Assembly: GCA_963669155.1 (NCBI GenBank)
Contig: OZ022588.1
Coordinates: forward strand, 6,720,679-6,784,678
Source of the DNA: Arbacia lixula
Lineage: Eukaryota; Echinodermata; Echinoidea; Arbacioida; Arbaciidae
Reading direction: 5' to 3'
Length of the DNA: 64,000 nucleotides
Below, piece after piece: positions 6,852 to 64,000 of this stretch. Made by a program: the position numbers and the translations under genes. How positions within the stretch are numbered: position 1 is the first letter of the stretch; each line of letters begins with the position of its first letter. Under the pieces are notes generated by a model. It searched no databases. It was not told where the DNA came from and was given only the letters and a program-made list of their open reading frames with translations.

Positions 6852-9800
6852 TCAAAAGACACGATCATAGTTCTGGTCTGTGGCAGGCTGTGATGGTCTG
6901 TTGGAATGGGTGTGGTGTGGGTTCCTGTGGTTCCCTCCTCCTCCCCCACCTCCTCCTCCCCCTCCACCAGCAGGATGCGGATGCTGCTGGATGCGTCGCC
7001 GTGGCGTCAGATACTCAAACATGGACTGGTTGTGCATGGAGAGCATCCGCTCCAGGCTGCAAGGCATCGGATCCACCCAGAAGAAGTCGTGGTTCAGCGC
7101 CGTATCTGCATCCACCCGCGACTTTGGGTCCAAATTCAGGAGCTTGTCGATGAGGTCCAGGGCTTGCTGGTCCTTGACGTAGCTCCGTAGACGCTCCTTA
7201 ACCTTGCGCTTCTGTCCCTTGGGAAGCTCCAGCGTGTGCGACAACTCCAGCTTTTCCAGCCCCGGCCAGACCGTGGCCGTGATGGACCCACACAGGTGGC
7301 TGATGAGTGTCAGCTGGTGCTGCTCTGTGTTCCCCTGCATGATCGGGCTGCGCGTCCACATTTCCGCCATGATACATCCTGCGCCCCAAAGGTCAATGGC
7401 TGGTCCATAATTCCGCTCCCCCAGGAGGAGCTCCGGCGGGCGGTACCACAGCGTCACCACTCTGTTCGTGTACCGGTTCGGCTGGTCGCCTTTCGGCAAA
7501 CTGAACGCCCGCGCCAGTCCAAAATCGGCGAGTTTCAGCGTGCCGGATTTGGTGATGAGAATATTTGCAGCCTTCATGTCCCGGTGAAGCACCTTGTTGC
7601 TGTGGATGTAGTAGAGTCCATTAAGGAGTTGTTTGATGACAGATTTGATCTCTCCGAGAGAGAACTTGACGTTGGTGTTGCTAAGGAGTCCAGCCAAGTC
7701 ATGTTCGCAGAACTCAAACACCAGGTAGATGCTGCCCTTGTACCGATTGTACGGAGTTGCTGAAACAAAGTGTTACAAAATCTGTTACGCAGTGTTACCA
7801 AAAGTTTTTCTATTTTCTAATTAGTATTTGCTAGCTAACAAAGAAAGTTGACAAATCATATATTACATTCATTTCTCCTCTATCTCATGTCAGTAACAAT
7901 GTGGGTAAAGTCATACATTATCAAGGGTAAAATACATAATCAGTACAAAGTACACCATAGATGCACATCTAACTTCCCTGTTTCTTCCATTAAAACCAAA
8001 AATAAAAAAAACAACAACAACTTTAGTCCTACAGATCTCTAAGACAGATTTCTCTGCTATCATACTGTCTGAATGTCACAATGTGGCTTAAGTCACACTG
8101 CTAAACAACAGTAACATACACAATCAGAAACGAAATATTTCTCAAGCAGCCTTGCCCCATATAAATAAACGTAGATCTTATGCAAATACAAACACACCTT
8201 TTGTCCTACAATTCCTCAGAAAACATTTGTCCTCTTTTAAATGCATGTCACAATTGGTTAAGTCATACTTCCTAAGCAGTAAAATACATTATCAGTACAT
8301 CATACATGAACATCCCCCCCCCCACCCCCCGAACAATGTGGGAACAGTCATACTTTCTTAACAGTAAAATACATCATCACAACAATGTAGATGGATTTGT
8401 AAAGCACCCCACTCCATATCAATAAACAAAGATACAATACAAACACACCTTTGGTTCTGCAGATCTCTAAGAGAGGGACAACATTATCATGTCGCAGCAG
8501 CTGAAGAATCCGAATCTCCCTCAGAGCTGTGATAGGGAACTGTCAAAAGAAGGAAATCAGAGAGACGTGCCAGATAAGCTTGGATTGCAACATCTGAGAA
8601 TGAAACATTTCAATCCTCGCTGGTGGCTAAAATCCCTCAAACAGTTTCTTTGAATAGTATTCAATGTGAACAATTCATACCTTACTCTACGAAATCTATG
8701 TCAAATGACTATAAGTCCGAATATAAAATACTTGCAGGCTTTGCAGCACCTAGATATCACATTGATTTGACACAGAAATAGGTTTGCAAAAGTTAAGCCA
8801 GAAGTATCTAAAAAATATGACAAGTCATGAATATTTGACAAAAGTATGCCATGTAGTCCAGGAAGACAACATCTGCTTGGGCTCATAATTATACCTGAAC
8901 AGTAATATTCCCCATTCAATGTCGTGACAGTTCAATGACATTTTCAATGGTAGATGTACAGGGTAGCTTAGTAGTAGCTTACCCCTTCTTTCTCGTTCTC
9001 CATCAACACCTTCTTGAGAGCGACTATCTTGCCGTTCTTCTTGTGCCTCGCCTTGAACACCTCCCTGCATGATTCATAAGAAGAAAAAAAATTTGGTAAG
9101 GTCGACCAGGAACATGGAAGAAGTATTCTTACAAATCTGATGGTTCTCAAAACTCCATTCAGATTTAAATTTTACAGTGTGCGATAAAGGATTCCAATTC
9201 ACAAAGAATGACTAGTCTACAGTCAGTCTATAGAATGACAGAATTACATTTGTTGCAACACTAGTACAGTAGTACAGCAAAGATAAGTATTGACAGGCTA
9301 ACATATTGTGCCCAGAAAATATGAATTTAGAGTCTTTTACTTAGACACCTAGACATCCTAGACTCTATATCACATGCCCTAGCCCCGGGACTGCTCCCGC
9401 GCAGCGGGAGCCCACTCACTGTGTGAGCGGGCTGGTCGCAGTAATCACATGCCCCTAAATTTGTTGCCAAAAATATTGTTCATATTTCTTGTTATATAAC
9501 TGAGTATGAATTTGTATGGCAATCATACTACGCAGTCAAGCAACTGGCATCTCTTTTATTGACTGAGTGTGTAGTTCAGTTGCAGCGTGTGTCAAATTAA
9601 AAGATGGTAAATTGGTATTTGTGCCGATGACTTCAGCCAGGTTTTAATCTAAACATTATGAAGATGTTTCAGTTAAGGATAACAAAGTTGACTCATATTC
9701 ATAATCTAGATAACATTCATAATGTCTCTCACGCTGTCTTGAAAGAAGCATTTTTCAAAACTTCACAACTAACGTCTTCCTTGACCTTGTCAAGCCTCCT

Positions 9801-10064
9801 TGTCCAAACATTGAACTGAAGATTGTAAACGGGAAGAAAAGACTTCTGAAATTGAAAAATAAAAATAAAATGAAAAACATACCCGAAAGTTCCTTGACCG
9901 ATCTTGGCGACTTTCTCATATTTAGACACTTCATCACAATGAGGAAATTCTACGGAATCCCTCTGATAAGGAGCCATAGTCATCTTGTAGCCCTGAGAAG
10001 TTGCGGCTTGACCAGGCGGTCCGGCAAAAGGAGCCCCTTTGCTGCTACTACTAGTTTCAGCCAT
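6852..10064 (-). CDS. CDK9: Cyclin-dependent kinase 9 (P-TEFb catalytic subunit), 4 exons
   Basis: CDK9 with cyclin T phosphorylates the RNA polymerase II C-terminal domain, DSIF and NELF to release paused polymerase in the nucleus. Coding exons on the minus strand: 10064-9883, 9064-8983, 8539-8449, 7759-6852. All junctions are GT-AG and the phases agree, giving 420 aa (human short form 372). Visible motifs: glycine loop GQGTFG (56-61), ATP-binding Lys78 in VALKKVL, catalytic HRDMKAAN with Asp179, DFG Asp197, T-loop Thr216 in NRYTNRVVT, and the APE-equivalent RPPE. The stretch ALREIRILQLL at exon 3 replaces the PSTAIRE helix, as in CDK9. Extra features are a 35-residue Ser/Ala/Gly-rich N-terminus before YQRDSVEF and a run of about 12 glycines near the C-terminus, which ends in DRVF like other CDK9 proteins. 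The first ATG has a good context (aacATGG); an in-frame upstream ATG exists (separate entry). Confidence 0.96.
7890..8240. repeat. Intronic tandem copies of the CDK9 exon 3 donor edge
   Basis: The true exon edge at 8449-8490 (plus-strand reading CCTTTGGTTCTGCAGATCTC) has decayed relatives at about 8022-8065 (TTTAGTCCTACAGATCTCTA) and 8195-8235 (CCTTTTGTCCTACAATTCCT). Each is followed or preceded by a shared intronic block with ACAATGTGG and AAGTCATAC, which is seen at 7890, 8075, 8250 and 8334. The copies are too diverged to act as exons. Confidence 0.75.
9369..9456. mobile_element. 63-bp GC-rich double-hairpin element with 12-bp target duplication
   Basis: The insert 9381-9443 starts AGCCCCGGGACTGCTCCCGC and ends GGGCTGGTCGCAGTA. 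It contains hairpin 1 (GCTCCCGC-GCAG-CGGGAGC) and hairpin 2 (CTCACTGTGTGAG with flanking CCC/GGG remnants); ACTGC near the start pairs with GCAGT at the end. ATCACATGCCC occurs at both sides (9369 and 9444). It lies in CDK9 intron 1. Other copies are at 12526, 50680 and 51795. Confidence 0.8.
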
Positions 10065-10166
10065 GTTGCTTCGTTGCTTCAACGTTGTGGAAATTCCGCG
10101 AATCTGACGTGAAACTGATGCATATGGGACTGAAATAGCTTTAAGATCCGCCAGACGCTTCGCCAT
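10065..10166 (-). other. In-frame N-terminal extension of CDK9 exon 1 (possible long isoform)
   Basis: The frame stays open upstream of the CDK9 start to an ATG at 10166 with a fair context (gtaATGG). This would add 34 residues, beginning MAKRLADLKAISVPYASVSR, with six arginines or lysines and one or two acidic residues. Mammalian CDK9 has a known long form with an N-terminal extension, but this extension is shorter and I see no similarity to it. It may simply be 5' UTR. Confidence 0.35.
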
Positions 10167-10260
10167 TACATCAACTCACCCAAAATATTAGCACACTTGT
10201 TCCCTTCGGGCAAGTTTTCTTAGTTTTCCCATTTTCTCTGTTTAGCTTTTTGTGCCAGGT

Positions 10261-51840: not shown

Positions 51841-52522
51841 GCCCTGCCAGAGCATATGGGCAGCGTTCCTGCCGGGAACCGATCAACGACCAAAAATGAG
51901 GCATGTTAATTTTGACTAGTCTCTAGCTTTATGTCATTGAAAATACAACTTACAAACAAAATATTCTTGGATCTCTCTGCTCCTGATATCGGCATATTGT
52001 ATCTTGTACTGTCGGGGTCTAGACTAATACGTTATGACGGTGAAATTAACGTGTCTATCGCCGTTTTCGGCTGATAACATGCCAACACGCTTCGTAGACG
52101 AACACCAATCAGAGCGAGTGGGACACAAGTACGTACGTACGTACGAACGTACAACGATTGATGCGCGCGCGTTGTGTAAAGCGTACGTTAGGCCAGGTGC
52201 TGCATCATCTCAGCTCCGAGCTCGCTGTGTCTACTGCTGTACTGATATAGTCTAGGTTCTAGACGTCTTTTATCAGCCCGGATTCGTACACAAACACGCG
52301 CGACGAAACTCAGCGCAACGATATCGAGTGATCGCGCGATCGCCGAGAATTGCCAGCCCGGAGAAAAAACGTCTAGGCAATTTGCTCGGATCTCCCTCGA
52401 AATTTGGAAGGGGAGCCATTAGGCGAGACCGCGCCCACGTACGAAATACCCGCTCTGATTGGACGCAGTGACCGTCCATCAGTTCGGTTTGAATCGGGCT
52501 GGGGCATGCGGTCCCGCGTAGG

Positions 52523-52834
52523 CTAGTCTATGTTATCAGACACAAATATGCTCTTTGCGTAATGAAACACGCACGATGATGAATGATTTACTACGTAACA
52601 ACCTGAATATTTAAATCAGTTGTCATACTATATTTTTTATGCAGAAACAGTCCAGCAAAAAAAAAAATGAAACTTATAATTGAAACATTTGATTTCCTTC
52701 TGCACGACATATGGTATGTAATGACAGACTAGGTGCAAAGTGCTTGAATTTCCAGGAAAACAACGTTCGGCTCGATGAGTTTGTAAACGGGTGTGAATGC
52801 GCATGGTGTGTTTTTAAAAGTGGGGTGGGGATGG

Positions 52835-52870
<36 letters not shown>

Positions 52871-53260
52871 ACATATCCAGTGTTGCTGTGAAGACCGGGC
52901 GGTACATTGCAATCACGAAAGAGAATCACCGGCCTAACAAATCGGAGTTTTGCTAGTCTATTTTATCAGACATGCGCTCTTTCCGTCATGAAAATTGCAC
53001 GACGATGGGTGATTTACTACGTTAAGACCTGAATATTTGAACCAGTTGTCATGAAAACTGTTTTCATTCAGAAACATTTTTTTATATAGAAACACGAAAC
53101 TAATATTTGAAAGATCCAATTACCTTACACACAACACATAGTATGTCACGACAGACTACCGGCCGGTTAACAAGGCATTGCAAGTACATTGTAAATAAAC
53201 TTTCGGACGGGTTAGTGATGATGAAAGAGAATCACCAGCCTAACACATCTGAGTTTCGCT
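52523..53260 (+). repeat. Tandem duplication (430-bp period) upstream of the DUF6589 gene
   Basis: Unit A starts at 52523 (CTAGTCTATGTTATCAGACA), unit B at 52953 (CTAGTCTATTTTATCAGACA). Shared blocks in order: GATTTACTACGT, ACCTGAATATTT, CAGTTGTCAT, CAGAAACA, ACAGACTA, and GAGAATCACC-GCCTAACA near the unit end. Unit A carries an extra (GT)n stretch (52832-52868). Unit B ends 78 bp before the start codon. Confidence 0.9.
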
Positions 53261-53338: not shown

Positions 53339-56300
53339 ATGGCTACCAAGCAAGGAAGATGGTGCATGTTATGTGATGCTGAGTTGATAACATGCAAAAA
53401 TTACATCAAAGTTAATTCAACCAGAGCATTGAGAGTTGGATTGATAGAAACAATAGCTGAAATAGTGGATGATAATATTTCTGATAACCCGTCGGACTTT
53501 CTCTGCAAGAAGTGCGAGAGCAAGACTAGGCACGTGAACACGCTTTCAACGCTCAAGAATGAACTTAAAGTTGCATACCATCTGACGAAACAGAAGCATA
53601 TTGGAACTGGTGAAATTCAGACAAAAACCCCCGAGAAGAAAAAACAGAAGCGCCAAGCACCATTCTCTCCTGGAACGCCGTTGTCGAAGGTAACGATTTT
53701 TATAAGTTGTTCAGCTTATTAATATTGACTGAAGTGTGTGCATTTCTCGCTGTCACTACGAAGACCTAGACTGTACGATTAAAACTGTTTATATTTTACA
53801 ATTTCAAACAAACAAATGACGTACATATTCATTAAAATATGAAATGCGTACAATGATCGAGTCCCTTACGATATTTTTGTGGGAAGGGGAAAAATCATTC
53901 CAGATGACTAGTCCATCGATCCCCCGAATTAAAGCCGGGAGGGGGTGGGGATCCTTGGAGAGTTTGTTTTATTTTGTAGAAATCATTTCATTGACTGAGA
54001 AAAATTATGGTGTGAAGCATTACTGGAACAATAACTTTCGTTTGCGAGTTATATGAACGAATCGATTAATATATTACGAACAACAATCAAATTTACAATA
54101 AACCCTCAAATCGATCACGATATAAACGTGTTATACTTTGGTAATACATGTAGGATCGAGCAATAATACAGCTAGTCGAGGTTCGTTCCTTTGAGTAATG
54201 TTGAGTAAAACAGTTGCATAGTTGGTCTCCACGAGTAAATTAAGATTCGATGATTATTAAGATAAGTTTGTAGTATTGGTATTATCTAGTAAAATCAATC
54301 TCGTCGTAATTGTAAGATTAAAAATGTACACTTACAGTTACAGACTGATGACGAATGTAGTCGTGCCTGTTCATTCCTATTTACACACATGTTGAACTTA
54401 CAATGGGTGGAATAGATTTCAATACACAATATGTGTAATGGCTCACAACCTTTTCATATGGATTTGATATACATGTATGTAATGTTTGTGTTTCTTGCAT
54501 CAATATCCAGCCTCGACTGAAACGAATCAGCCATACTACTAAGGAACAAGAAAATATAAATCCGTCAGCAAGAGTTGCTGGATCTGTACCTACAGTCGGC
54601 TCACAAAAACAAGTGGTAAGTAAACTATAACATGAAACTACACTTATGCTCCAGTGACCTCTTCTCTTCCTCGTCCCTCCTTTCGTTTATCTATGCATTT
54701 GAAATGGAACGCCAACGTATATATCATGTTTAATTGAATATGCATACCATTTTGCTCATTATTAATATCGATATTTTTTTTTTTAACTTAATAGTTTGTT
54801 GTTGTACTTGACGTTTCATTTGTGATATTTGACTTTACCGTGACTGGAATCATCTGGTAAAGTAAAAGATGTGTTCGCGCTTGATTATTTTAGTTTTTAC
54901 CAATGATTTAATATTCATCTTTTTACCCATCTGCAATTATCCCCATGCATAGAGGGCATGTCACTCACCAGCAGCACAAAGTCAACGTTTGGCAGCGAAA
55001 ACCAGTCTTTCATTTGAAACATCACCCAACAGTTCTGGTCTGATATCACCAGCAATAAAGGTAAGAACCATTGTCACTGCAATCATGAACCGTATCGATT
55101 CAACATTATTTTTTCCTTAGCCCCGTACCATTTTTCGTTTCTGTTTACACTGGTCTCAGTCCCGGCTTTTATAGCTTGGCATCGTTTTATGTATCGGGTT
55201 AGGTACATAAAGATAATACACAAGACGCGAACAGAGAGCAAGAGTGAATTGTCTGCTTGATGTATAAACTACAAGTGTTTTAATTTTTGAATACTTTTGC
55301 TTACACATGGGTATTTTTATTTCCATCATTAATCATCACATGGTACTGGTTGGTACAATAATATTTTGAGTTAGAGAAGTGAGTCATCTGGGGCCGGAGC
55401 GACCAGTGGCAGGATAATGTGGTCAACATGGTCAAGTGAATATATCGATTGGAATGTGAGAATAAGATAAGAACTGAGAGTTTGAGACAGAGCGAAGTAC
55501 AAAGTGAAAGTGTTGCATGCAAGGCATGGTTGAATCTTAAAGGAGCATAATACAAAGACACATGCTATACATATGTGCGATATACATGCATATCATAACA
55601 ATCATGTAGTTCAGTACACTACACACCGCAATTACGTTACGGGGTTGGCCCTGCTTTTTGCAGTGCCAAATTAATGCCGTAGTCTCCGTTTTCTAGCAAA
55701 AATGGTCTGTTTAACACTCCTCAAAAAGTAGCCAACACACTTACTCTTCCTTTTACAAGTTCATCCATATGCAACCAGAACAAAATGCGCGCAGTGAATT
55801 ATTGAAAGTACCTCCCGTGATGAAAACGGAGTACATGTACATGATGAAATGTGTGTAAACACGGAGTTTGCTATTATACAGGGGGAAAATACAAATGTAT
55901 CAAATGAATTGACCTGTCTTGAGACAGTGTGAGAGGCAAGATGCCTGGGCGTCCTAGAAATACAAGTCAAAGTTCAAGTTAAACATTCTCGAAAAAAAAT
56001 GATTCATGTATTCCCAACGACATGCACTTGAAATGTTGGAATATCACTCCTCTCATCATTCAAGTTGATTCAGAGAGAAGTTCTTAAACGATTCGTATGT
56101 TTTATAAAACACCATAAATCAATTATATACAGTACATGCATTTAGGTTTGCAGAAGTGATACAGCTATCACCCTGCATAGGCTATGTAGCTAAAGAAGGA
56201 TAACGTTGAGATGTCGTTACTGCTGATATTTTTTAATTCAGCACCAATATAATTATTTCCATTGTCTCAATTTAGATATCAATTCACGACGGGAGCAGAG

Positions 56301-59300
56301 TCGCGACCAAATGTGTTCCCGAGAAATGGTCTTCCACAACCCGGGCTATCTATCGAGGAGATGAAACAGCGGCTATCAATCATGTTCTTCGAATGGATTC
56401 CGCCAAAAAGCATATGCAAGATCTCATGTTAACGGATATTAAAAGGGAGACGGATGAGTTATGTAAACCTGGCGCTAAGTCTATTTTCAGAGATTCGTCT
56501 GTGGAGTCTTTGAAGCAGTTTAGTGTCCAGAAGCAGAAAGAAGAGTTAGAACAGAATGCCCCATTATTCATGTCTGTGCTGAAATCCTCGTCACTGGGCG
56601 ACAACGTTGACAAGAACTTACTCAAAACGAAAGAAACCATTCTTCCGAAAGTCATGACTGCTGCAAGTATTCTTTTGAATTGCAAAAGTCAACATATGAA
56701 CTGTTACCAATGCATTAATAGCTTGACACTAAAGCATTCGGGAGCAAAGAGGAAAGCTATAACAAGATTAAGCGCTAAAGGTGTGGCCGCGTCTTACCCC
56801 ACAACTATCGAAAAACAAATTCAATGTGGTGAAGACTTTGACAAAACTGTAAAGCAATGGGCTGCTGAATTACACGAAGGTAATGATGTTGGATACCAGC
56901 TCGTAATGGACAACGTCGACCTCAACATTCGCGCTCGTCACCCAACAAAGAGTAACTACGGACGAGACTTCCACATGGCCCATATTTTAGCAGTCAAGAA
57001 TAGGGTTAGTGGAAGCCACCTCAGCAGGCAGCATTCGGTACCTGAGCTCAATTCCGTCGACAATGCTGTGTTCTTGCCAACTGCAAGTGACAATATGAAT
57101 CTCAAGCATGAATGGGCTGTATTGTGTGGGAGAATAATTTCGGATCACTTGCCAAGTCTGAAAACTGATCTGGATAAGCTACCAAGACATATTCAACATG
57201 ACCACATGACCGAGGCCAAGGAAAGATCTTCTGTGGTAAGTTTAGTACGCCTAAATTCAGTCGACCACCCCCCCCCCCCGACCCCACGCCCTAGCTACAG
57301 GGTTGGTCTTTTTTTATATAGTGCATTGTAGTAAACCAATTACTTGATATACATGTACTTGCCAAGACGCGTTCCAAAGTTTGACTTTAAAACAACTTGA
57401 TTTCATTCAATCATTTGTGCGACTGCATACAGAAAATACTCCAGGCGTCTTTAGAATGAAAAGATTACAAGTATATTACTTTTTCATTTACTCCCTGAAA
57501 AATCGCAACTGCATGTTATCATCAGGCTTCTTTCATTTCACATGTGGATTGGCAAGATTGTCACCATGCAGTTGACACGGGAGCACTATGTACGATTCTG
57601 TATTTCTTTTCAATCACAGGTTAACCTAGGTGTCATCATGGAAGATGAAAATACCTCTGAGGGTATTTACGCCATTATGCACCACATGCACCAGTACGTT
57701 CCTGGGCACGACACGGAGCATCCTTCCACTATCATCAGTGCCGGGGATTTGCTGACTTGCGAGCGGGAAAGCAACTGCATAGAGGAGCAAAGGAATTCTT
57801 CAACTCCAAGCAAACGTTTGGAAGGACTGATGCCCGTCATCGCAGATTTTCATGCTCTCGCAAACTATTATCAGGTAATAACTGTAGAGAGACATAACTA
57901 CATGTATTATGTTTTACGTTTCCCGCGCTGAATGCGCAAATCAACAATCACAAAGCTTTTAAAAATATTTCTGAAAAATCACATTGGTATAAAGAAAAAT
58001 ATAATTGATTATGATTCATTTATCAAGATAAATATGTTTTTATTGATCTCTTTTCGAGACGTAAATATGGTTTTCCTTTTGAGTAGACTAATCACATTGA
58101 TATGATTTATGTAATAATCAAATATTTACTTTATCATCACCCTTAATATTAGTGAATCTCAACATTATTACGGGATGCCCGCATGTCGGGAGGAGGCGAC
58201 TCTCGCGGCTATACTTGACTGTTGTGTTTCCAAATTGCCGCATAGGCCTTACATTATGTGAATGTTTATATTGCTGGTGTGTTAACGTGCTACATGTGTT
58301 ATGGTTTTCTTGCATTCATGAAACAATTCCATGCCACATTTTGACACACAGGTCATGTGGAAGCATCTGTATGATCCAGCATCAAGCGCCGACAAGTGGA
58401 CACTTTACGCGGCAAGGAACTACTTGCAGACACGGAACGTGACACTTGATCCGATCAAGAACGTCAATGCAGCAGAGCACCTGGTTGTGCAATACACCAC
58501 TGCCTTGATTCTTGCCGCTGCTTTGCTCTTCTTTGGCATGGAGAACTGTGATGCTGAGCCCACAATGAATAAGTTTGATCTCGCCACTCATGGGGATTAC
58601 CAGAGTTATGGTACGGCAATCATGCACAAATTTGTTGAAGAATATGCTCTCCCATCGAATGAAGAGATCAACCTTCAGTCTTGTGAGTTCAGATGCAGTC
58701 TTTGTAACAAAACATATGCATCGAGGAAGAATCTGCTAAAGCATCGGAAGGACAAGCATGGTGCCCAGCCACAAGAAGACTCTGCTGCATCCAACACATC
58801 AGAAGTCGACTGTGTGCAGAACTACTCCCGGGTTGCACTCGGAATGGGTCTGCTTGCCATGAACTTCAAAGATGCTCGGCAGTATGGCGATGGCGAGAGA
58901 CTCATTCGCCTCTACAAATTTCTGCTCTTGCACTGCAAAGTAGCAAAAAAGCCGAAATACAGCTACCACATTCTGAGGTTACTGGCACAAGTGAACTTGT
59001 TCTTATCACCGAGATTGTCCCATGAATTAGTGTGGAATCGCTTTGTAAACACTACTGGCAGAAAAGATGGAAATGTGGAGGTTGATCGTGTGATGGAGCA
59101 TCACAACCGAATATTCAAAGATGGTTGTCACGGCTTGAGAGGGAAGATCACCCAGAAGAATGTGGACAGGATCAGTAGGTCTGTTCAGCAAATTGATATG
59201 ATGTTGCAGCATGTTGACAGGGAGACTGCAGTCAAGCCACATGCAGTAACCAAGCACAAAGTTGATAAGCGCGATCCTGTAGCTCTTGCCATTGAAATGC

Positions 59301-59461
59301 ATAAAGATGATATTTTTGGATTCCATCCAGGTCGAGCACATTTCAGATTTCCCCACTTCCCTTCATCTGTATTCAGTGCCCTTGACGCACCAGCTATGAA
59401 TGAATGGATCAAGGCTACGATAAAGAAACTTCATCGACAGAATCAATTTCAGAATCCTTAA
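53339..59461 (+). CDS. DUF6589-type transposase-like protein with ZAD-like and C2H2 fingers, 6 exons
   Basis: Exons: 53339-53689, 54511-54615, 54953-55060, 56276-57235, 57620-57874, 58352-59461. All introns are GT-AG and phase 0. The product is 962 aa with no break. The N-terminus has C9-x2-C12 and C56-x2-C59, spaced like a ZAD zinc domain. A basic/proline linker follows (KTPEKKKQKRQ). Residues 320-600 hold VMDNVDLNIR (Asp400), GDLLTCERESN (Asp551) and RLEGLMPVIADFHALANYYQ; 594-962 hold a C2H2 finger (C708, C711, H724, H729) and VMEHHNRIFKDG (Glu842). The acidic motifs and the EHHNR block match what I recall of DUF6589, a family spread in fungi and animals and suspected to be RNase H-like transposases. 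Function is unproven. The start (attATGG) is the only in-frame ATG of exon 1 that keeps the cysteine pairs. No transposon ends were identified. Confidence 0.82.
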
Positions 59462-59680
59462 CTTTGTTGCTTGATGTATGGGCCTAAACTGTATGCAATA
59501 TATACGCATGGGACTTTCACCTAGTAGAAATGTTAAATTTGACCAAAAAATACACCACTACCCTTTTTTTCTTTCCGTTCTTTTCCTTGGGGGGGGGGGG
59601 GGGGCGGAAGGAGTGGGGGATCTTGCCATATGTATTGAAGTCTGAAGTATCGAAATATGTTTTTTTCAGGTGAACAAACA

Positions 59681-59686
59681 AATAAA
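59681..59686 (+). terminator. Candidate polyadenylation signal of the DUF6589 gene
   Basis: AATAAA 220 bases after the stop codon, followed by a T/GT-rich stretch (ATGTGATTATATTC). Confidence 0.5.
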
Positions 59687-60733
59687 TATGTGATTATATT
59701 CAAACACGAGGAGTGTTTCAACCTATTTAATTACCGCTTAAATAACAAGGGCATAAACGTAAAATTGGCAAGTAATCTATCATTCGAAATAGGGCTTCAA
59801 ACTCTGCATTATGATACACAAATTTAAATAGCTGTATGTTGTTATCTAGTTATCCTCATGTGCTTTCATTGCAGTGCATATATTATTGGTAATGCCAAAA
59901 ATTCTCTCTGTTTTCTCAATTGTCAGCTATAATGAACGACTGTGAGAGAATAGATATATGTTTGCGTATATTTTGTTTGTAAATACATCCGTGAATACAT
60001 AATTATGTGATCTGCATTTTGGTAGGTCAATTTGAAAATCAATGTAAAAGCGGAAATTGCTGATTTATTGAAATGAGCAAATTGATGCCAATTATATGAC
60101 AAACTCATATACTAAATGTTTAAGGGTGATCATGGAACATAACATCATGACTTGAGGTAATACTATGGCCGTCGTGCATACAATGCAATATAATGGACGT
60201 ATTGGTTTGTTTGTTTTTCTCAATACATGTAATTAATAGAAATACAAACCACTAACACGGTTATGACGCATCATAAGAAAGCAGTTTTCGTAATGGTTTC
60301 ATATATTCTGCATGCATTGTTGACGATACGTAACTTGGAAATCAATTATGTATGACGCATCGTATATTCATCAATCGTATTTACGCATGCACATACATGT
60401 CTAATGAGTTCCCAAAGTACATGCAGCTAGGTCCACATCTAAGCTGTTATGTAAACTCTCTTGAATATGACAAGCAGTGTTGTCCACTTCCTATCCGACT
60501 CTTTCATATCATTTCCTATTTATTTGTTTATATTGACATTCGATTTCAAGTAATGATCTTCCAGGGCACCTTCAATTATTTATTTTACATGTACTTATAC
60601 TACGATCATAATGATTTTAATCATGCTGAGATTGGACATTTGTTTTAGTAGGTGGCTTTGCAGTGCTGTGAGGAGAAGAGCAGAACGGAGGGTTGCTAAT
60701 GAGAAATTAATTAACAAAAGCGGAAAGCTTATA

Positions 60734-61755
60734 CAGCTTACTCTCGATATAACGAGGTCGTCGGGACCAGAGGTTTTTCCTCGTTATAACGAAACCTCGT
60801 TATATCCAAACAGCATAAAAAACAATAAAAAACATTGAAATATGTGTGCTTGTGTGTTCTTTGTGTTTTACTATGTTTTGATATCTATAGCCGCCTCGGA
60901 AACATGCGTTATCAAACGGGAAAAGGGGGATTGGAAACATGCGTTTTCAAATGGAAAAGACGATATATTTTTGCCCAACACATCATCTGACCTCGTTATA
61001 CTGTCGCCGTTTAAATAGCTAATTGCATTACATGACATGAATCTGACTTTCAAACCACATGCTTTCAATGTACGTACTCTGTGCGAAGGAGTATGCTCCC
61101 GTATGTGTGCAGTGTATTACGAGACACGTGTGTCTGGCTCCATGCGTTACCGATGCAAACATGTGCTTTCAATATACATGTACGTACGCTATGCGAAGGA
61201 GTACATGCTTGCGTTGTGTGTACAGTGTATTACGAGGCTCCATGCGTTGCCGATGCAAGACATGTGCTTCCAATGTACATGTGCGTACGCTATGCGAAGG
61301 AGTACATGCCTGCGTTGTGTGTACAGTGTACATGTATTACGAGGTGTGTGTCTGGCTCCATGCGTTGCCGATGCAATACATACGTGCTTTCAATGTACAT
61401 AAGCCATGCGAAGGAGTACATGCTCGCGTTGTGTGTACAGTGTATTACGAGGTGTGTGTCTGGCTAGCTCCGAGCTCCACGCATTGCCAAAGCAATACGT
61501 GTGTAAGAAGATTGCTTTCAGCCCGCTCGCCCTCAATTTTTTGTTCCTCGTTGTAACGGACACATTTGTTATGTTTTTCTTTGTCTTGGGGTCAACATGA
61601 AAAGCTTGTTATAACGAAATCTCGTTATAACCGTGCTCGTTGTAAGCGGCGTAGTGCACCATAGGTTTGCATGTAGACAATTTTGGGCCCGAGATATTTC
61701 CCTCGTTATAACGAAACCTCGTTATATCCGTGCTCGTTGTATCGAGAGTAAGCTG
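60734..61755. mobile_element. TA-flanked pogo/Tigger-like non-autonomous element, 1022 bp
   Basis: The left end CAGCTTACTCTCGATATAAC and right end CAGCTTACTCTCGATACAAC (minus strand) lie between TA at 60732-60733 and 61756-61757. Subterminal copies of CCTCGTTATAACGAAACCTC occur on both sides. CAG termini and TA duplication fit pogo/Tigger (family knowledge). The interior holds a minisatellite rather than a transposase. Confidence 0.85.
61059..61500 (+). repeat. Minisatellite of about four units of 100-120 bp inside the pogo-like element
   Basis: Units share GCGAAGGAGTA, GTGTGTACAGTGTATTACGA, GGCTCCATGCGTTGCCGATG and GTGCTTTCAATGTACAT. All three plus frames stay open for 120-165 codons because the unit lacks stops. 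The frames are cysteine-rich but not supported as a gene. Confidence 0.88.
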
Positions 61756-62581
61756 TAGAAACCATTGTCAAGAGAGTGTGGTTATGTAGTCCAAGCTCCT
61801 GGAAATAATAAACGTTACTTTGTTAGGTCATCAAACAATATACATGTATCTGAATTTTTGCTAATTTTTTTTTTAATTCACTCGGGCGATAAAATTTGTC
61901 ATACATGTATGCTAAACCAAATGACAATACATATATACAAATGTACTCGATTACCATGCAAGGACAATTACGTTCTGATGTATTTGGGCATTTTCTTTAT
62001 CGGTGTGCCATTATTGTGAAAATAAATGCCTTAAAGTTTCCCTTCATCTGTTCAAGCAAATAAGTCACGCAATTGAAATCAGTAAAGGACAAAATCATGT
62101 AATACAGAATGATATCTGGATCAAGTATATTTATTTAAGAAACGTTAGTAATATGTATGGAGAGAAAGTAGAAAGTAGAGATAAATGTGAGATAACCATG
62201 TAATGTTCAGAACAATACTGAAGGGAGGAGGTAAGTATCACATTATGTCTACAATGAAAAGAAGATACGTAGAATAAAGAGGATAAGTGTGAGTGCATGC
62301 ATGTTGAGTGTGTATGAGCATGGTATGCGCGAAGTATTTTGTCTGCTCTTATTAAACTGGCAGTTTCTTATCCTCTTCTGAACTTCCCCCTCTCTTCCCT
62401 TTGTCCTCCTCCACCTCCCATGCATACTTCATCTCTCTCGTTTCTACTCTCTCGATGTTGTGCATAATGCGTATGTGTCCACAATAATTACATGTATGTG
62501 AGTAAATAAGCGTACGTTGGTGTGTGTATGTGTATAGAATAGAAAGCAAGTTCAGTAAGATGGTTGTTGTTGCTGATGTGT

Positions 62582-62588
62582 GTATGTA

Positions 62589-62625
<37 letters not shown>
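62582..62625. repeat. (GT)n microsatellite
   Basis: GTAT/GT dinucleotide run. The His-Thr frame on the other strand is an artefact. Confidence 0.95.
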
Positions 62626-63304
62626 CTACTTATACTCATCGTTCACTCTGTTAAAATAAATGACTTCCTTACCTAAATGTCACCTTCTTTGCTATTGCTC
62701 CATTTAAAGAGATTTTCCTCGCACCGTTTGTCTCGCTCTAAACCACGCCTATTGTCACTTCACCCCTTCTATTCAACCCCACCCCTCTCCTCTTCACTCT
62801 CTCATCGTGTAGTATGTTACCTCTCCACACTAGATATAATCTTGTCCCCCTCCTTCTCTCCCCCTGTCACGTACATAGCCACGCCGTGAGGATGTTAGCA
62901 TTGCATCTAAATACGAATGGAACAATCTTCATGTTTATGGTAGGGAGAGATACAGCGTTTTAATCGCATTGCAGTTATTTCTATCGATCGGGCCTCCATC
63001 GTATCAAGAACATTATATAAATCAATCCTGTGAAACAGTGTTACCACCGCTATCCCTTACAACATTACAATGTGTCCATGCAGATTGGCAATTTTTTAAA
63101 CACGCGTATTAATTTTACCATGTCTACGGTTTCTGCCGTACAGGGGAAACAACTCATGACCAAAGTTTTTGAATCTAAAATCGAAATGCCAAACCAATTA
63201 AACCAGATGCACAAACATAATTACTTTATAATCAAGTCGCGTAATACAACATAGATACCCCCGAAATTAATAAAGATGCACTTGTGAAGGAGAGCAAATA
63301 TTAA

Positions 63305-64000
63305 AAAGAGCTATACATAAGTAGGCTGATACCAGTGCAACTATAAGACATAAGACGTGTAATATACATATGAGTTATAAGAGTACATACCATCGGTATT
63401 TATGAACTGTAATAAAATAAGAGATGACAAGACGGAATGTCAAACATTATTTTTAACTATTGATGAACTGTATCGCATTTATCCCTGTCCTTCTTCAAGA
63501 AATCATTTTGTAATAAATAAAACCGTATACATGTACATCATCTCACGAGTGTGATGTCCTAAAACATACATTCCCAACCGGGGTACTGGTTGTGCAATAA
63601 ACGGGATGTTGTGTAAACATGAAATAAAATTTAAATATACAAAATTTTGTCCCTTTTCAACTGACTAGAGTGCACTGTTGTAATAGTAGAGTACATGATT
63701 TCAATCAATTTAGTACGTTTAAACATAAGAACTGCAACAGAATAAATGCATTAATCGACCAGCAAATCATAACAAAAAGTGTTTTCTTACAATGTTCATG
63801 GAAATAAACATAGAGGGGAAAACTTAGACATCAGTTTGTGATGAATCTTATACATTAAGTATGCTGATACCAGTGCAAACATGATCTTTTTTTTGTCGAA
63901 CAAATCTTCACATAAGACGTGTTATGTACATGAGAGTTATATCATCGGATCAGCACATTAACGTTGAATAAATATTGAGCATAAATAAATGGATGACAAG
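63305..64000 (+). repeat. Diverged tandem repeat at the window end, period about 540 bp
   Basis: The block at 63317-63430 (AGGCTGATACCAGTGCAA, CATAAGACGTGT, GAGTTAT, ATCGG, GATGACAAG) recurs in the same order at 63856-64000. The second unit has extra bases after the first phrase. The repeat may continue beyond the window. Confidence 0.75.

Follow-up and report, generated by a model that had tools for sequence, protein, structure and literature searches.

We analysed a 64,000-nucleotide stretch of the echinoid Arbacia lixula genome (contig OZ022588.1, positions 6,720,679 to 6,784,678, hereafter the window) and found that its six-exon DUF6589 gene encodes the transposase of a DNA transposon in which a RecQ-type helicase is also encoded. 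On sequence evidence, it is very probable that this element is a member of the AcademH lineage, about 15-17 kb long, recently mobile and apparently autonomous, with the DUF6589 gene as its transposase. Its assignment as a new AcademH family with both genes open appears well supported, and the kind of element has been described before. The first-pass annotation of the window had left undecided whether the gene was a transposase or a domesticated gene, a question that the ends, inverted repeats and target-site duplications decide in favor of a transposon's transposase gene. The interest of the element would lie mainly in the function that it suggests for DUF6589, a Pfam family of unknown function, and in the opportunity to test duplication length, rather than in a new kind of system. 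A word search of 5.39 million papers did not return the term DUF6589.

The transposon, its copies and its two genes

The window copy spans 52248-69040 (16,793 bp) and runs past the end of the window at 64000; the transposase gene occupies its left half, and the helicase and the right inverted repeat lie beyond base 64000. Across the genome (607 Mb, 590 contigs), four near-identical full copies with unrelated flanks were found, located on contigs C13 (the window copy), C3 (15,161 bp), C18 (16,087 bp) and C7 (15,862 bp). Comparison of 38-44 kb around the four copies revealed shared pieces over 52248-68918, interrupted by single-copy insertions and deletions. One such insertion in the window copy (60734-61755) is not part of the transposon and resembles a non-autonomous element of the pogo/Tigger type. 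Searched as DNA, exon 6 had seven matches, comprising the four copies and three 93% identical pieces on C6, while the exon-by-exon search for DUF6589 returned at least 36 genome matches (from 45 candidates, all of which were scored).

The ends of the element are TAGTCTAGGTTCTAGACGTC and its reverse complement, and all four copies possess inverted repeats of about 1 kb that are 98.4-99.4% identical within each copy. In the window copy, the terminal 118-119 bp of the right inverted repeat occur twice in tandem, separated by a 4-bp spacer (68800-69040), which places the outer end of this copy at 69040. Target-site duplications were assessed at 19 insertions, of which 14 were flanked by an exact 9-bp duplication (three of the four full copies, namely those on C3, C18 and C7, and 11 of 15 short elements). 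The remaining insertions had an 8-bp duplication (the window copy), eight of nine bases matching (two) or no duplication (two). As a control, mispaired flanks gave a 9-bp duplication in 1 of 342 cases, and this single case probably reflects the short elements L055 and L056, whose flanks are near-identical. The first-pass annotation had proposed counting near-identical copies and had suggested a recent arrival or an element that is still active; the four copies on four contigs, their near-identical inverted repeats and the target-site duplications agree with this.

We also assessed how widely the ends occur. With up to three mismatches, the 29-bp end matched the genome at 451 places (215 forward and 236 reverse), compared to 0 and 0 for a reversed-pattern control, and about 440 of these end-sequence copies lie beyond the full elements. 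Among 100 of the 451 places that were listed, eight were ends of full copies and 30 formed 15 converging pairs spanning 126-264 bp; the rest had no near partner among the matches listed. The inspected short pairs are foldbacks of this size, and a 253-bp search gave at least 44 matches (40 of 641 candidates scored). The 15 short elements in the duplication count are L040 and 14 others; these are the converging pairs found by eye among the 100 listed places, and so the best-kept ones and not a random sample. L041-L043 were left out, being a single end, a diverged pair (duplication off by one base, by eye) and a pair of equally oriented ends. The four near-identical copies and the hundreds of end copies suggest recent movement. 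As a side observation, L055 and L056 (a C1/C7 pair) share the same position and near-identical flanks, which indicates that both lie inside another repeat or duplicated segment.

The gene structure proposed in the first-pass annotation, six exons giving 962 codons with phase-0 introns, was borne out when the window sequence was spliced. The exons join into an open reading frame of 962 amino acids without a stop or frameshift, every exon length is a multiple of three, and all five introns are GT-AG and in phase 0. The frame and splice sites are kept in all four copies. Synonymous divergence (dS) between copies ranged from 0.010 to 0.016 and non-synonymous divergence (dN) from 0.003 to 0.005, with dN/dS of 0.24-0.37 in all six pairs; per pair, these ratios draw on 6.5-10 synonymous changes and 6-11.5 non-synonymous ones, small numbers from pairs that are not independent. 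Exon divergence was 0.45-0.73% compared to 0.9-2.3% for introns, and was lower in all six pairs. Because the frame and splice sites are kept and both of these measures point the same way, the gene structure appears to be more than chance, and the dN/dS and divergence values support the exon model and the recent copying of a working gene.

The second gene encodes a helicase of 588 amino acids near the right end, with one GT-AG intron, on the strand opposite to the transposase gene, so that the two genes converge. Its frame is open in all four copies. It resembles RecQ and WRN, its best relatives in the PDB (E about 1e-40), in possessing DEAD and Helicase_C domains, but differs from them in being encoded inside a transposon and in that its match to the RecQ zinc-binding model (RecQ_Zn_bind) falls below the Pfam cut-off. 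A genome search with the helicase gave at least 78 matches (74 of 177 candidates scored), and the first eight rows were the two exons of the four elements. No helicase match was encountered near a diverged DUF6589 relative at C9:23.88 Mb among the matches listed. Helicase fragments at C7:3.598-3.603 Mb adjoin another DUF6589 match at C7:3.608 Mb, and this locus is perhaps a second AcademH family. In a further 26 rows, frames of 129-156 amino acids align at 45-53% with nothing but helicase residues 11-75; judged by these matches, they are a repeat family that carries a helicase start.

Protein motifs and DUF6589 sister elements

DUF6589 matches were also found in a second type of element. Single frames of 1589-1891 amino acids account for 18 of the 36 DUF6589 rows, and seven of these frames are 1818 amino acids long. 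Three of these seven elements (L031, L032 and L033) were compared; they measure 11.2-11.4 kb, their main pieces are 99.5-99.9% identical, and their ends are CAGTCTGG, with 4-bp duplications (TACA, TGTA and TAGT, by eye) in all three copies. These sister elements, which look to be of the AcademX type, share with the window element the DUF6589 match, a cysteine module and similar-looking ends (CAGTCTGG compared to TAGTCTAGG, by eye). They differ in having one uninterrupted frame, 4-bp duplications, inverted repeats of about 17 bp and a tesmin-like CXC domain (found with DUF6589 in the one copy scanned against Pfam), and in that their frame contains no helicase domain. No nuclease was matched in the sister frame, either in Pfam (one copy) or in the PDB by sequence. 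The acidic motifs of the sister protein presumably resemble those of XPG/PIN proteins. It was noted that all three compared elements have a tandem repeat of variable length directly before the 1818-amino-acid frame.

The DUF6589 identity of the window protein was confirmed by the profile search that the first-pass annotation had proposed. The match to DUF6589 (PF20231) spans residues 451-887 with E 1.5e-40 and 139.6 bits against a cut-off of 27, and is the sole Pfam match above cut-off for the 962-residue protein. The C2H2-like motif predicted to be embedded in the protein is present at residues 706-729, where several Pfam models match, none of them reaching its curated cut-off (best E 0.00057). 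On C9, a broken and diverged relative has the finger without its first cysteine. The label of a ZAD domain for the N-terminal paired cysteines did not hold and was rejected, since zf-AD was matched neither by the whole protein (E<=1) nor by exon 1 alone (E<=5). These cysteines instead align with the cysteine module of the sister protein in one of two sister sequences, the other locus ending before the module. When the transposase was searched by sequence against the PDB, only zinc fingers were matched, at E 0.038 or worse, and no relatives of it were found in the viral contigs scanned.

Translation placed Asp400, Asp551, Asp584 and Glu842 where the first-pass annotation had reported conserved acidic residues, and all four are kept in the broken C9 relative. 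D551 lies in an AGD motif and D584 in a DxH motif (584-586) shortly after it, and D551, D584 and H586 are invariant in a three-sequence MAFFT alignment of the window protein and two sister sequences. We weakly prefer D551 over D584 as the candidate second catalytic aspartate because the AGD motif followed by DxH also occurs in the sister proteins, and because a C/DxxH motif after the second aspartate is described for several transposase superfamilies in a passage of PMC10045372. In the window protein the spacing is one residue shorter. D400 lies outside and before the Pfam match, so the first candidate catalytic residue would escape the DUF6589 model in its present form.

Placement, mechanism and rival explanations

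AcademH is reportedly a helicase-encoding DNA transposon of the Academ superfamily, to go by the title of a 2020 paper by Kojima (Mob DNA 11:15). Its duplications are given as 9 or 10 bp, and those of AcademX as 3 or 4 bp, in a passage of PMC10045372, whose author links the two lengths to helicase and nuclease. The window element possesses both AcademH features, as it encodes a helicase with an open frame besides the transposase and makes duplications of predominantly 9 bp (8 bp in the window copy), and the sister elements show the AcademX duplication length.

Several observations weigh against this placement and the proposed catalytic site. The comparison with published AcademH elements covers their described features. 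The alignment puts the window and sister transposases far apart (18-21%), and hhalign joined them weakly, over 51 columns at a probability of 5.7% (E 0.0067); the link between the two types is drawn only because both match DUF6589. MAFFT did not place D400 and E842 opposite acidic residues of the sister proteins, and these two were matched by eye only; the DDE/D triad of D400, D551 (or D584) and E842 in an RNase H fold is putative. Two of the 15 short elements have no target-site duplication. One of these, L057, has the same outer flanks as L058 (C8:5.419-5.435 Mb), which indicates that copies of the element can also spread within larger duplications. At this pair of loci, the end pairs lie 264 bp and 5.9 kb apart, and neither has a target duplication; this is one locus duplicated locally. 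In the interval with ends 5.9 kb apart (C8:5.419-5.425 Mb), inspection by eye showed reverse-transcriptase-like frames; no frame of this transposase was present, and the interval was set aside.

In the mechanism that we propose, the spliced transposase would bind the ends of the element, perhaps through the N-terminal cysteine module and the embedded C2H2 motif. A DDE/D site of D400, D551 (or D584) and E842 would then excise the element and join it to target strands 9 bp apart; we infer cutting and joining with this 9-bp stagger from the ends and the duplications. The RecQ helicase may open the ends of the element or the gapped joint, after which repair would complete the reaction, although any role of the helicase in transposition is a guess. 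The short foldback elements could be moved in trans by the same proteins.

The strongest alternative accepts AcademH identity by descent and holds that the family is now immobile, the four copies being relics of one recent burst, and we regard this as a serious possibility that falls only somewhat short of even. The synonymous differences and the intron divergence given above indicate that none of the four copies is brand new; however, both genes are open in every copy, and within each copy the two inverted repeats hardly differ. We entertain only tentatively, and think somewhat unlikely as a whole, a broader proposal in which the family is mobile today, DUF6589 is the Academ transposase core in both lineages, and the relation of partner enzyme to duplication length can be tested in one genome. 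What the genome offers in this respect is a helicase-carrying transposon that is complete, open and recently mobile and whose ends recur in short foldback elements, together with a sister family making 4-bp duplications, which renders the published link of partner enzyme to duplication length testable. If the proposal is true, a genome with open copies of both types could be used to test the effect of helicase and nuclease on 9-bp compared to 4-bp duplications.

The other explanations concern the identity of the element. A Mutator-like (MuDR/MULE) transposon with a diverged MULE transposase would fit the long inverted repeats and the 9-bp duplications, which fall within the 4-10 bp that a passage of PMC10045372 gives for IS256/MuDR. 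However, the MULE domain was unmatched in Pfam at E<=1, with DUF6589 alone above cut-off, the element carries a RecQ helicase, and a DUF6589 sister family makes 4-bp duplications; a MULE transposase was rejected on the Pfam result, and we consider this origin highly improbable. Less likely again is a Kolobok-type (KolobokH-like) or Helitron-like helicase transposon, as Kolobok makes TTAA duplications and Helitron none, and neither pattern fits the varied 9-bp duplications at 14 of 19 insertions; other transposase families were also unmatched in Pfam. In its favor, KolobokH encodes a RecQ helicase, and the red-algal Kolobok-1_CCri has it on the complementary strand, as here, according to a section of PMC9587614. 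A transposase domesticated as a host gene and then segmentally duplicated would also account for the intact frame, the introns and the purifying selection, but the copies, helicase included, are bounded by inverted repeats and target duplications at unrelated sites, and this least probable explanation was rejected for these copies.

Feature coordinates and neighboring foldbacks

Table 1. Features of the transposon in window coordinates; positions above 64000 lie beyond the window.
Feature	Position	Strand	Remarks
Left target-site duplication TACTGATA	52240-52247		8 bp, exact; repeated at 69041-69048 beyond the window
Left terminal inverted repeat	52248-53241	+	About 1 kb, 98.4% identical to right arm; begins TAGTCTAGGTTCTAGACGTC
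Transposase exon 1	53339-53689	+	CxxC...CxxC cysteine module, C9/C12 and C56/C59, at 53363-53515
Transposase exon 2	54511-54615	+	
Transposase exon 3	54953-55060	+	
Transposase exon 4	56276-57235	+	D400, first candidate catalytic residue, at 56909-56911
Transposase exon 5	57620-57874	+	D551 at 57746-57748; D584-x-H586 at 57845-57853
Transposase exon 6, stop included	58352-59461	+	C2H2-like motif at 58688-58759; E842 at 59096-59098
DUF6589 Pfam match span, introns included (residues 451-887)	57062-59233	+	
Element interior within window	59462-64000		Contains later insertion 60734-61755; element continues to 69040
Later insertion in window copy, 1,022 bp	60734-61755		TA-flanked, CAG..CTG ends; empty site in the other three copies
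RecQ-like helicase, two exons	67732-67236 and 66440-65171	-	Beyond the window

The first-pass annotation had set the foldback-free introns of the gene against neighbors rich in foldbacks, and a simple 14-mer stem search agreed, with 18 foldbacks in the 52.2 kb to the left of the element, none in the 11.75 kb of the element within the window and none in the gene. At the density of the neighbors, about four would be expected in the 11.75 kb and only about two in the gene, so the zero for the gene alone is weak evidence. The inverted repeat of the element had no match within window positions 1-52247, which indicates that the foldbacks of the neighboring genes belong to other families. Among these left neighbors, exons at 6852-10175 on the minus strand resemble by eye what we take to be a CDK9-like kinase gene.

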